A stretch of DNA of 64,000 nucleotides from Meghimatium bilineatum (Eukaryota > Mollusca > Gastropoda > Stylommatophora > Philomycidae): assembly GCA_034231615.1 (NCBI GenBank), contig CM067307.1, forward strand, positions 216,001-280,000. Reading direction: 5' to 3'. Below, piece after piece: positions 53,601 to 59,600 of the stretch. Numbering within the stretch: position 1 is the stretch's first letter; every line of letters starts with the position of its first letter. A program made the position numbers and the translations under genes. The notes beneath the pieces are model-generated. The model saw only the letters and a program-made list of their open reading frames with translations. It ran no database searches and was not told where the DNA came from.

Positions 53601-56600
53601 AACACCTGACCGGGACTCTGAGTCTACATACACTGGGATGGCTGCTGGAACGGAGGGTGGAGCACTTATTGGAATGTCTCATGTGCTGTGAAGCCTGTTT
53701 CTAATCAAGATTCAAGTTTTGAAGACTACCATACGAGAACTTCCAGTAAATTGGTGAGCACAGTATGCTATATATGTGTACGGAATTATGATTTTTCATT
53801 TTGAAATGTTTCTTTTGTGAGACTTTGTATTTTTAAGATTTTTACATCTCCTTCACAATATTAAGAAGCATTATCCTTGTAAATTCATAAATGAGTGTAT
53901 ACTGTACTTAATACACATGCAATGTTGGATGCAGGAATGCATCAGGAAAATTTTTTAGGTAAAAAAGTTCAACAACCCGACACAAAATATTTCTTGCATT
54001 GAAAAATGCTTCAACACTTAGAACAATATCAATAACTAGGACACATAATTACAAATGATTACAATGATATGAAATTACAATGATATGAAACAGAAGTTAT
54101 TAGGAGAATTGGAATGGCTAAAAGTACTTTCAATGACAGGAAGATAATTTTAACATCTAAACAAATTACAAACAAGGTAAAAATGAGAATTATAAAATGC
54201 TACATCTGTTCTATATTAATGTAAAGTTCAGAAAGATGGGAAATAAACAAACAATTAGAAGACAGAATTTATGCCTTTGAGATGTGGATATATAGAAGAA
54301 TAGTAAGAACATCACGGAAAAAAGAAAATCAACAGTGAGTTTATAACAGCACTTCATATGAAGAAAGAGTTATTAAAAAAAGATCAAGCAAATGAAATAT
54401 TTTGGACATATTAAAAGACATGACACCTTATTGAAGACACTACTTGAGGGTAAAGTTGAGGAAAGGTGAGCAAGAGGTAGGCAGAGATACAAGTGAGAAT
54501 AATATCACAAGATGGACAGGTTACAGTCCAGCAGAGTGCACCACCATGAAAAAAGATAGGTAATATTGATCTGTGGCAGTCAACAAAGTTATGGAGATGG
54601 CACTTAATGATGATTGCCAACTTGAAAGATTTGTCCCCAAGCCAAGAGGTTAAATTTGTCTACTACTCGGTAGATGTTCATGTAGCAACAGTTATGATTT
54701 TTACAGTGACTATGTGTGCCAGGTAATCTGGTATATTTATTTATATGTTTTAGTTGTTTTCTTAACTTGATTACATTAAAAGGTTATGTATCTTCAGATG
54801 TTCTGATAGCTGCAGTTATGATTTGTACAGTGACTGTCATCTATGAGGGTCTCAAAGCTATCAAATCCTATGTGTTAATAAGAAGAAAACATAATCCATT
54901 CACACATGTGGAAGTTGATGATAACAGTGGACAAAGGATTGAGGGCAATTCTTCACAAGTTAATCTGCTTGCATCACTTAGGATACCACTCAATGTTCAA
55001 CACGTTCATAGAAGAAAGTTAGTCACATATTTCACTCATACATCATTTATGTTCATAGAAGAAAGTGACACCTTTCACTCATACATCATTTATGTTCATA
55101 CAAGAAAGTTAGTCACATATTTCACTTATACACTATTTATGTTCATAGACGAAAGTTGGTCACACCTTTCACTCATACATCATTTATGTTCATAGAAGAA
55201 AGTTACACCTTTCACTCATACATCATTTATGTTCATAGAAGAAAGTCACCATATTTCACTCATACATCATTTATGTTCATAGAAGTAAGTTACACCTTTC
55301 ACTCATACATCCTTTATGTTCATAGAAGTAAGTTACACCTTTCACTCATACATCCTTTATGTTCATAGAAGAAAGTGACACCTTTCACTCATACATCATT
55401 TATGTTCATAGAAGAAAGTTAGTCACATCTTTCACTCATACATCATTTATGTTCATAAAAGAGAGTCACATCTTTCACTCATACATCATTTATGTTCATA
55501 GAAGTAAGTTACACCTTTCACTCATACATCCTTTATGTTCATAGAAGTAAGTTACACCTTTCACTCATACATCCTTTATGTTCATAGAAGTAAGTTACAC
55601 CTTTCACTCATACATCCTTTATGTTCATAGAAGTAAGTTACACCTTTCACTCATACATCATTTATGTTCATAGAAGTAAGTTACACCATTCACTCATACA
55701 TCCTTTGTGTTCATAAAAGAGAGTCACATCTTTCACTCATACATCATTTATGTTCATAGAAGTAAGTTACACCTTTCACTCATACATCATTTATGTTCAT
55801 AGAAGTAAGTTACACCTTTCACTCATATATCATTTATGTTCATAGAAGTAAGTTACACCTTTCACTCATACATCATTTATGTTCATAGAAGTAAGTTACA
55901 CCTTTCACTCATACATCATTTATGTTCATAGAAGTAAGTTACACCTTTCACTCATACATCATTTATGTTCATAGAAGTAAGTTACACCATTCACTCATAC
56001 ATCCTTTATGTTCATAGAAGAAAGTCACCATCTTTCACTCATACATCATTTATGTTCATAGAAGTAAGTTACACCTTTCACTCATACATCCTTTATGTTC
56101 ATAGAAGTAAGTTACACCTTTCACTCATACATCATTTATGTTCATAGAAGTAAGTTACACCTTTCACTCATACATCATTTATGTTCATAGAAGTAAGTTA
56201 CACCATTCACTCATACATCCTTTATGTTCATAGAAGAAAGTTACACCTTTCACTCATACATCATTTATGTTCATAGAAGAAAGTCACCATCTTTCACTCA
56301 TACATCATTTATGTTCATAGAAGTAAGTTACACCTTTCACTCATACATCCTTTATGTTCATAGAAGTAAGTTACACCTTTCACTCATACATCCTTTGTGT
56401 TCATAAAAGAGAGTCACATCTTTCACTCATACATCCTTTATGTTCATAGAAGTAAGTTACACCTTTCACTCATACATCATTTATGTTCATAGAAGTAAGT
56501 TACACCATTCACTCATACATCATTTATGTTCATAGAAGAAAGTTGCACCTTTCACTCATACATCATTTATGTTCATAGAAGAAAGTTGCACCTTTCACTC

Positions 56601-59600
56601 ATACATCATTTATGTTCATAGAAGAAAGTTACACCTTTCACTCATACATCATTTATGTTCATAGAAGAAAGTTGCACCTTTCACTCATACATCATTTATG
56701 TTCATAAAAGAGAGTCACATCTTTCACTCATACACCATTTATGTTCATAGAAGAAAGTTACACCTTTCACTCATACATCATTTATGTTCATAGAAGAAAG
56801 TTAGTCACATCTTTCACTCATACATCATTTATGTTCATAGAAGAAAGTTAGTCACATCTTTCACTCATACACCATTCATGTTCATAGAAGAAAGATTAAT
56901 GCCATTGTTTAATGCTACGACTATGCATCAGAGTAAAATGGATGATCCTAAATGTAGATGGGGAGATTTAGATATAATTCTAACAAATTTCAAACTCTAT
57001 ATTATGTCTGAAGGGAGGCAGAAGCTGTGTTTCTTCCTTATCAGTTAAATATAGCCATACAGCAGCCATTTTGATATTAGATAAAAGAACTGGTAGAGTG
57101 ACATCACACACTACTAAAAATTCAGGATCTTACAATTATTCAAAAATTATGAGCACTGTGAGTATGCATTCAGTGAATTGAAAGAACCGAATGTTAGTCA
57201 CATTTATGAAATATATACCATTTCTAATCATTGAGGAAAGTTAGCCACATCTTCAAAACCATTGTCGATAAATACGATTTTTTTGCCTTGTCACACAACA
57301 CGTCTAACCTTCCCACAGAAGATCATTTGTTGCCTGTCACCTTTCTCGAAGCATTCTTGCCCAATCCTTTGTTTTTGTCTTCAAAGCACATTTTCCCTGC
57401 TCATTAGTAAAACTTGGACAGGTTCGTTATCACACTGACCATGTTAACTGCTTGTGAAGGACACCAAGCATATGAAGAGAATTTATTCATCAATGTGTAC
57501 TTGTTACATCAATGATGATTATTTTCACTCTTCTCTCATGTTGGCACAGGTGATGCAGTATGTGTGAGCTTCATTTTAACTTGCCCTGTATATTGTTTGT
57601 TTGAAGACTTTGCTGACCAGAAATCTGGAGTAAACTTCTCCCATTACCAAAAGTGTTTGCAAAGTTTAGAAAAAATGATTGCCATATTGAAAATTTTGTG
57701 GAAAGTAAAAAAAAACATATCTTTGAAATTTGCAGTGTGTCATGGTGTAATATTTGCATTCTCTTAAGGAATTATTAATAGCATCAGAGTAAAATCATGT
57801 TTATTATAATGCTGAACGTAATTTGGCAATATGTATTGAACATATTACCCGGTAAATAATTATGAACATATATATATATATATATATAAGATGTGACTAT
57901 ATATATATATATATCATTATCAGGTGCCATGCCGGCTGGCGTAGGCTGTCATGGCTCTCCACAGCTCTCTGTCCACAGTATTATGTATCAAAGTCGTTGT
58001 TGTTTCTTTGCCATGCCAGGTTGTCAAACTGTCTAATATTTTCTCACGTTGTCGCCCTCTGTTTCTGTTGCCTTCAATTTTGCCTGTTGTGACTATGTTC
58101 TCTAAACCTACCTGTCTCATGAAGTGGCCAAAAAAAGAAGATTGCCTTTTCTTATATTGTTGATTAAGGTCCGTTTCGCATTTGACTCTTTCAACACTTC
58201 TACATTACTGGTAGTTTTTCTGGCAGTCCATGGTATTCTCAGCATTCTTTTGTAGAACCACATCTCTGTTGCCTCTAATTTCCCACTTTTCAGTTTGTTT
58301 ATTGTCCAAGACTCGCACACATATGTTAGTATAGGGGATATATAGCACACTTTGATCTTGCAAGGTGTGTTATTTTGTTTCTTTGAAATAACCATTACTT
58401 CTGTTTTCTTGATATTTAGAAAGAGTCCTTTCTCTTTACTTTCTGTGACTACTACATTAATTAAATCTTGAAGGTCTTCCTCACTTTTTGCAATCAGAAC
58501 AGTGTGATCCGCATATCTCAAATTATTTATGTTATGTCCTCCCACTGATATTCCTGGGATATCTACTATTGCACGCAATATGTTTTCACTGTATAAAGAG
58601 AACAGGTCTGGTGAAAGCACGCATCCCTGCCTGACTCCTTGTTTTATTTGTTGAAAAGGGACAAATTGATTTCCTACTCTTATTGCTGCTGTTTGTTGCC
58701 AGTACATGTTCTTGATTATTCTTAAATTCTTCCTGTCAATGTTCAAATTCTCTAGCATGTGTATAATTTCACTATATTTAACTTTATCAAATGCTTTCGT
58801 GTAGTCTATAAAACAGAGGTACAGATCTGATTTTACCTCTATAGACCTCTCTATTAGTGTTCTCAATATATAAATAGCATTGTTGGTACCTTTGCCTTCT
58901 ATAAAGCCACATTGTTCTGGACTTATTTCTGATTTTAGTTTGTTTCTCACTCTCTTCATGATGATTCTGAGAAGTATTTTGGTTATTTGGCTCATGAAGC
59001 TGATTGTACGGTGTTCTTCACATTCGGTGATCCCTGGTTTCTTAGGTAATGCAATAAATATGGACCTCATTAAGTCATGTTTCCACTGTTATATATGTCA
59101 TTCAGCAATTTTGTGATTATTTCAACTCCAAAGTCATCTAAAGCTGCTAATTCTTCTAATGTGATATTGTCTGGACCTGGGGCTTTACCATATTTCATGT
59201 CTCTTAGTGCCTCCCTTATTTCTGCTGTGAGTATTGATGGACCCTCGCCGTTGTCTTGTATGTTTATTTTTGGTCATTTCTCATCATAAAGTTCTTTGAT
59301 ATATTCTGACCATCTCTGTACTATGTGATTTATTCCCATTAATACCTGCCCTGTCTTAGATTTTAGACACCCTGTAACTGTTTGCGTTCTCTTTCCTGTT
59401 ATCATCTCAATTTTCTTATATAGTAATGTTGTATCTTGGTTGTAATGCAATTCTATTTCTGTGCATTTCTTGTTCAGCCAGCTTTCTTTTGCTATTTTGC
59501 ATTTCTCTCGTATCTCCTTATGTATTTTCTGATATTCCCCTATCTTGTGTTTATTTTTCCTTCTGGTGCTCATCAATTCTAATATTTCTTCAGTCATCCA

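Follow-up and report, generated by a model that had tools for sequence, protein, structure and literature searches.

The window analysed here is a stretch of 64,000 nt (bases 216001-280000 of contig C10, in a genome of 1.61 Gb in 32 contigs). Its + strand carries exons of a copper transporter (CTR) gene, and a minisatellite starts inside the end of one of them. The exon coding for TM1 and the next loop (54798..55017, +) ends with ...AGAAGAAA in phase 2, as indicated by the PF04145 match of the joined exons and by a homologous exon with the same end in the paralogue L031. The TM2 exon (61178..61293, +) was placed by phase and by its homologous exon in L031, and it is followed by the donor GTAAGT at 61294. 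The exon boundaries define the array-hosting intron as 55018..61177 (+), and the last exon lies outside the window, in L034. The TM1, TM2 and last exons join in phase, and the joined protein matched PF04145 with 69.0 bits (cut-off 25.3) and PDB 6m97, a high affinity copper uptake protein 1 chimera (E 5.9e-9). CTR proteins share the motifs MxxxM in TM2 and GxxxG in TM3; in this gene, we found MLLIM in the TM2 exon and GSGIG across the last exon junction.

The family also has a methionine/histidine-rich N-terminal exon, and a simple ORF comparison with a motif search found none upstream of TM1. When the genome was searched at the DNA level for other copies of the TM1 exon, only the exon itself was returned. 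Just upstream of it there is a decayed partial copy of its start (54672..54711, +; local alignment score 53, whereas the best of 300 shuffles reached 28). In addition, the array-bearing intron contains an (AT)59.5 tract and, at 57920-60663, antisense open frames that we take to be retroelement-like (reverse-transcriptase- and endonuclease-like). Within 62074-64000, the next CTR intron has a minisatellite of 40 bp x 22 and another of 34 bp x 28; the first includes 18 donor-like words scoring at least -1, 2 of them at least 3. The window had 0 Rfam matches at the gathering score.

Structure of the array

TRF detected one array at 55004-56894, with a period of 43, 43.3 copies and 92% matches. When cut at GTTCATA, this 43-bp minisatellite (55004..56894, +) yielded 43 complete units and a partial 44th, in agreement with an earlier note on this DNA that had described a tandem row of about 43 exon-end/donor junctions. 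The same note had each unit starting with the end of the TM1 exon and its donor. This also stands: the array begins 14 nt inside the exon, so that the first 14 nt are exonic, and the exon end is supported by L031. Unit lengths were 43 bp (34 units), 47 bp (6 units) and 44 bp (3 units), with 20 distinct sequences. The donor GT (alignment columns 15-16) is invariant in 43/43 complete units, and the partial 44th has GA where the donor GT is expected. Fragments resembling GTTAGTCACAT and GAGGAAAGTTAGCCACATCTT were seen by eye 3' of the array, at 57186-57260, and are possibly decayed outlying units.

A full GTAAGT, within AGAAGTAAGT, is present in 21 of the 43 units, which upholds the earlier count. 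These 21 GAA|GTAAGT sites extend over 55285..56500 (+), from unit 7 to unit 35, and the first GTAAGT of the array is at 55285. In the whole window, GTAAGT occurs 34 times on the + strand and 9 times on the - strand. All of the 21 units have the same continuation, TTACACC. Furthermore, the 47-bp units are units 1, 3, 4, 42 and 43 plus unit 10, that is, five of the six are at the array ends, unit 1 included. Identity between units declines slowly with distance, from 0.926 for neighbours to 0.891 for units 29 apart. Because of the shared TTACACC, the clustering in units 7-35 and the position of the 47-bp units mainly at the ends, the 21 GTAAGT units would most simply represent one mutation spread by repeat turnover. 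We infer that one A-to-T change made GTAAGT and that local duplication spread the copies.

The mean entropy of the donor columns was 0.440, against 0.160 for the other columns (43 units). Seven of 47 circular shifts, the observed one counted, had an entropy as high or higher; the same test gave 8/47 with the 20 distinct unit types and 6/43 without gap columns. Thus, the donor columns show no unusual conservation, yet no unusual variability either.

Age of the exon end

A genome search with PF04145 gave 22 exon-level matches, of which 10 were over the cut-off (the TM2 exon of the window included), and ten loci around the matches were examined. Among them, the closest CTR relative of the window gene is L031 on contig C24. 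Its TM1 exon ends with CGGAGAAGAAA|GTATGC and that of the window gene with CATAGAAGAAA|GTTAGT; both code for ...RRK. The two genes have a common exon end AGAAGAAA|GT, an equal phase and a homologous TM2 exon, which in both starts with a single G after AG. No TRF array was found in the corresponding intron of L031, which has a single plain donor. Since L031 has the equal exon end and phase with one donor and no array, the donor preceded the array. The comparison therefore says that the RRK end and its donor are shared and older, and that the array belongs to the lineage of the window gene after the two genes separated.

An exon ending elsewhere is unlikely given the exon end and phase of L031. 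We also considered whether the ancestral junction could be located where the array ends on the right, with unit 44 followed by ATTAATGCC and the paralogue having TATGCC. The alignment scored 23 (shuffle mean 21.4, maximum 39), and a longer stretch scored 39 against a shuffle mean of 43.4, so that this candidate was rejected. The exon end joined to the intron after unit 1 scored 38 against L031 (maximum of 34 in 200 shuffles) and the intron alone 22 (shuffle mean 18.8), and homology is weak beyond the exon.

Reading frame, donor strength and base rate

The predicted true 5' splice site is the GTTAGT of unit 1 (55018..55023, +), whose phase fits the TM2 exon and whose position fits the donor of the paralogue. 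The earlier note had stated that the early donors keep the frame. The frame is indeed open through the first units, but of these only 1 and 3 have donors that join to the TM2 exon in phase, and the statement is corrected to that extent. Besides unit 1, the GTTAGT of unit 3 (55108..55113, +) is the sole donor ahead of the stop that keeps the phase. It would add 90 nt, or 30 aa; this predicted form retains the PF04145 match with 62.4 bits. The donors of units 2 and 4 shift the frame, with a stop 17 nt into the TM2 exon. An in-frame stop in unit 5 (55193..55195, +) comes before the donor of that unit and those of all later units up to 43, including all 21 GTAAGT sites, as had been claimed. The distance from stop to junction is 6 nt for unit 5, 49 nt for unit 6 and at least 89 nt for the 21 GTAAGT sites.

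Donor scores were obtained with a generic PWM, and they were -0.98 for the unit 1 donor, 0.04 for the L031 donor, 3.74 for GAA|GTAAGT and 8.79 for CAG|GTAAGT. The predicted U1 duplexes have the same order, with -1.6 kcal/mol for AAAGTTAGT, -5.3 for GAAGTAAGT and -11.8 for CAGGTAAGT. GTAAGT is thus predicted to be stronger than the unit 1 donor, as the earlier note had proposed; by these scores the decoy donors would outdo the true donor, yet they are far from the best possible. One U1 gene examined in the genome has a canonical 5' end and begins with ATACTTACCTG. U1 matches were scored genome-wide for 42 of 18340 first-look candidates, with 42/42 over the cut-off, and 28 U1 snRNA genes form a tandem array with 1442-bp spacing at G000:C14:15481630-15520727.

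In the array, words scoring at least 3 as donors reach 11.1 per kb, roughly nine times the density elsewhere in the window (1.2-1.3 per kb outside the array); at the looser cut of -1, the densities are 13.8 and 8.3-8.4 per kb. GTRAGT words number 21 in the CTR array and 1 in the next-richest among the 12 non-overlapping arrays listed. Because the decoys outscore the true donor and high-scoring donor words are so much more frequent in the array, leaky mis-splicing is plausible, and its effect may perhaps be large. Exon definition would favour the shortest exon, here 220 nt over 487 nt or more, and with it the donor of unit 1.

Minisatellites with a period of 10 or more make up 13.9% of the window; the figure for 87.8 kb around other CTR loci, a sample chosen for CTR genes and not at random, is 17.3%. 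Enrichment at the chromosome end was considered as a cause of the array and is not supported, because minisatellites are no scarcer at the other loci. Genome-wide, tandem triples of GAAGTAAGT had 1312 match places vs 2035 for the reversed word, and triples of AGGTAAGT had 3268 vs 3783; these are places that overlap within arrays, not numbers of arrays, and they are not normalised by single-word frequency. Arrays of donor words are common and show no excess over the reversed word. Apart from itself, the CTR array retrieved two weaker matches from the genome, one with 66% identity (E 2.2e-30) and one with 73% (E 5.3e-6). These loci, L002 and L003, have minisatellites whose units (35 bp and 44 bp) differ from the CTR unit. 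The L002 unit has in common with the CTR unit a short stretch like CATCATT-ATGTTC. We take both to be probably independent arrays and not further copies of the CTR array.

Origin, effect and known systems

With a probability of roughly 0.7, we regard the array as a tolerated minisatellite seeded by a splice junction, with possible leaky splicing; it would be a neutral accident, not an evolved device. Tandem duplication of the junction between exon end and 5' splice site would have seeded the array after the split from the closest paralogue in the genome. Ordinary repeat turnover could then have produced both its length and the 21 GTAAGT units. Correct splicing most likely starts from the unit 1 donor AAA|GTTAGT, and splicing from later donors, if it occurs, would be leakage with mostly unproductive outcomes, which would make the array a tolerated hazard. 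The array is probably not under selection, because the GTAAGT units look as if they had one origin, the donor columns are not conserved, minisatellites are abundant, and there is no genome-wide excess over the reversed word. For these reasons we find no support for a selected role in the splicing tuning or U1 recruitment that the earlier note had suggested.

It is possible, but in our opinion unlikely, that the array is a rheostat of splicing, in which the weak true donor has to compete with stronger donors further downstream, the array length sets CTR output through stop-containing forms, and unit 3 provides an isoform with a longer loop. The donor strengths and the position of the stop fit such a model, the +30 aa form still matches PF04145, and the use of downstream repeat units as donors has a precedent in IFI6 (PMC4526556). 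However, the GTAAGT units look single-origin and the donor columns vary, the donor of the paralogue is also weak (0.04) although it has no array, and use of a GTAAGT site would lengthen the exon from 220 to 487-1697 nt, as calculated from the coordinates.

We consider it improbable that the gene is dying or silent, a young pseudogene whose splicing was ruined by decoys and intronic repeats. The weak true donor facing 21 stronger decoys, the antisense retroelement-like stretch and the (AT)59.5 tract in the same intron, and the N-terminal exon that was not found would agree with such decay. Nevertheless, the TM1, TM2 and last exons are open and in phase and retain MLLIM and GSGIG. The dN/dS to the paralogue, 0.147 over 109 codons (NG86), also speaks against decay, but the dS of 2.65 is near saturation and the value says nothing on the time since the array arose; dS for the TM2 exon alone was not computable.

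It is very improbable that the tandem GTAAGT sites serve, with no part in splicing themselves, to bind U1 and thereby aid exon definition or keep the 6.2-kb intron from being polyadenylated prematurely: the 21 sites have better predicted U1 pairing than the donor and the U1 gene examined has the canonical 5' end, but the pairing is only -5.3 kcal/mol vs -11.8 for CAGGTAAGT, position -1 is A, and across the genome, arrays of this kind show no excess compared with the reversed word. The four readings are not mutually exclusive. We also think it doubtful that splice junctions are recurrent minisatellite seeds in a wider sense, with the donor array of the window CTR gene and an acceptor-like array at the paralogue L029 acting as length-dependent rheostats, so that CTR output would evolve by repeat number.

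The preferred reading, a tolerated minisatellite seeded by the junction, has relatives in other genomes. Turri, Cuin and Porter reportedly described in 1995 that the human IFI6 / 6-16 minisatellite gives multiple splice donor sites. Two downstream repeat units of this IFI6 / 6-16 (G1P3) minisatellite are used as splice donors, according to a later source (PMC4526556). In both genes a minisatellite gives one exon several splice donors, so that units can be alternative donors, as the CTR sequence would predict. The two differ in unit length, which is 43-47 bp in the CTR array and only 12 bp in IFI6, and the fifth CTR unit contains an in-frame stop. In human segmental duplications, internal tandem repeats modify genes, as reported by De Grassi and Ciccarelli (2009), who likewise describe minisatellite expansion in recent paralogues, some of it at an exon-intron boundary (PMC2812944). 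However, the human variable repeats there average 30-bp units x 4, with the boundary cases tied to novel introns, whereas the CTR array comprises 43 units and lies in an intron that the paralogue also has. In a potato RdRp gene, a tandem duplication across an intron-exon boundary similarly copies splicing signals across the exon edge (PMC4974935); that single duplication created a new intron, whereas the CTR case is an array with no new intron seen.

The kind of feature is already known from IFI6 (PMC4526556) and the repeat-modified human paralogues (PMC2812944). A published report of the CTR array itself was not found in the literature searched, which excludes most subscription journals. What recommends the CTR array as a test case is how large it is and where the stop codon falls within it. 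It offers a clear natural test of spliceosome choice between a weak true donor and a row of 21 stronger decoys, and of the way in which repeat-rich genomes tolerate minisatellites seeded by splice junctions.

Of 13 CTR-family exons checked, 5 have a minisatellite within 60 bp, with exon edges being approximate; the 13 include the last exon of the window gene, and its TM1 and TM2 exons were left out. Another CTR gene has a 62-bp repeat (3 copies, L026:2225-2408) in front of its TM1 exon, with 12 bp between them. In the CTR paralogue L029, a degenerate array (7840-8412, with TRF periods 28, 31 and 56, within the feature L029:7840-8417) lies directly before the 3' splice site of the TM2-3 exon. 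Its units are acceptor-like (ATGTTTATTTAG vs the acceptor ATGTTTTCAG|G), a mirror image of the donor array. The mean pyrimidine content of the 15 nt before AG was 0.72 for the 18 AGs in this array and 0.49 for the 478 outside it.
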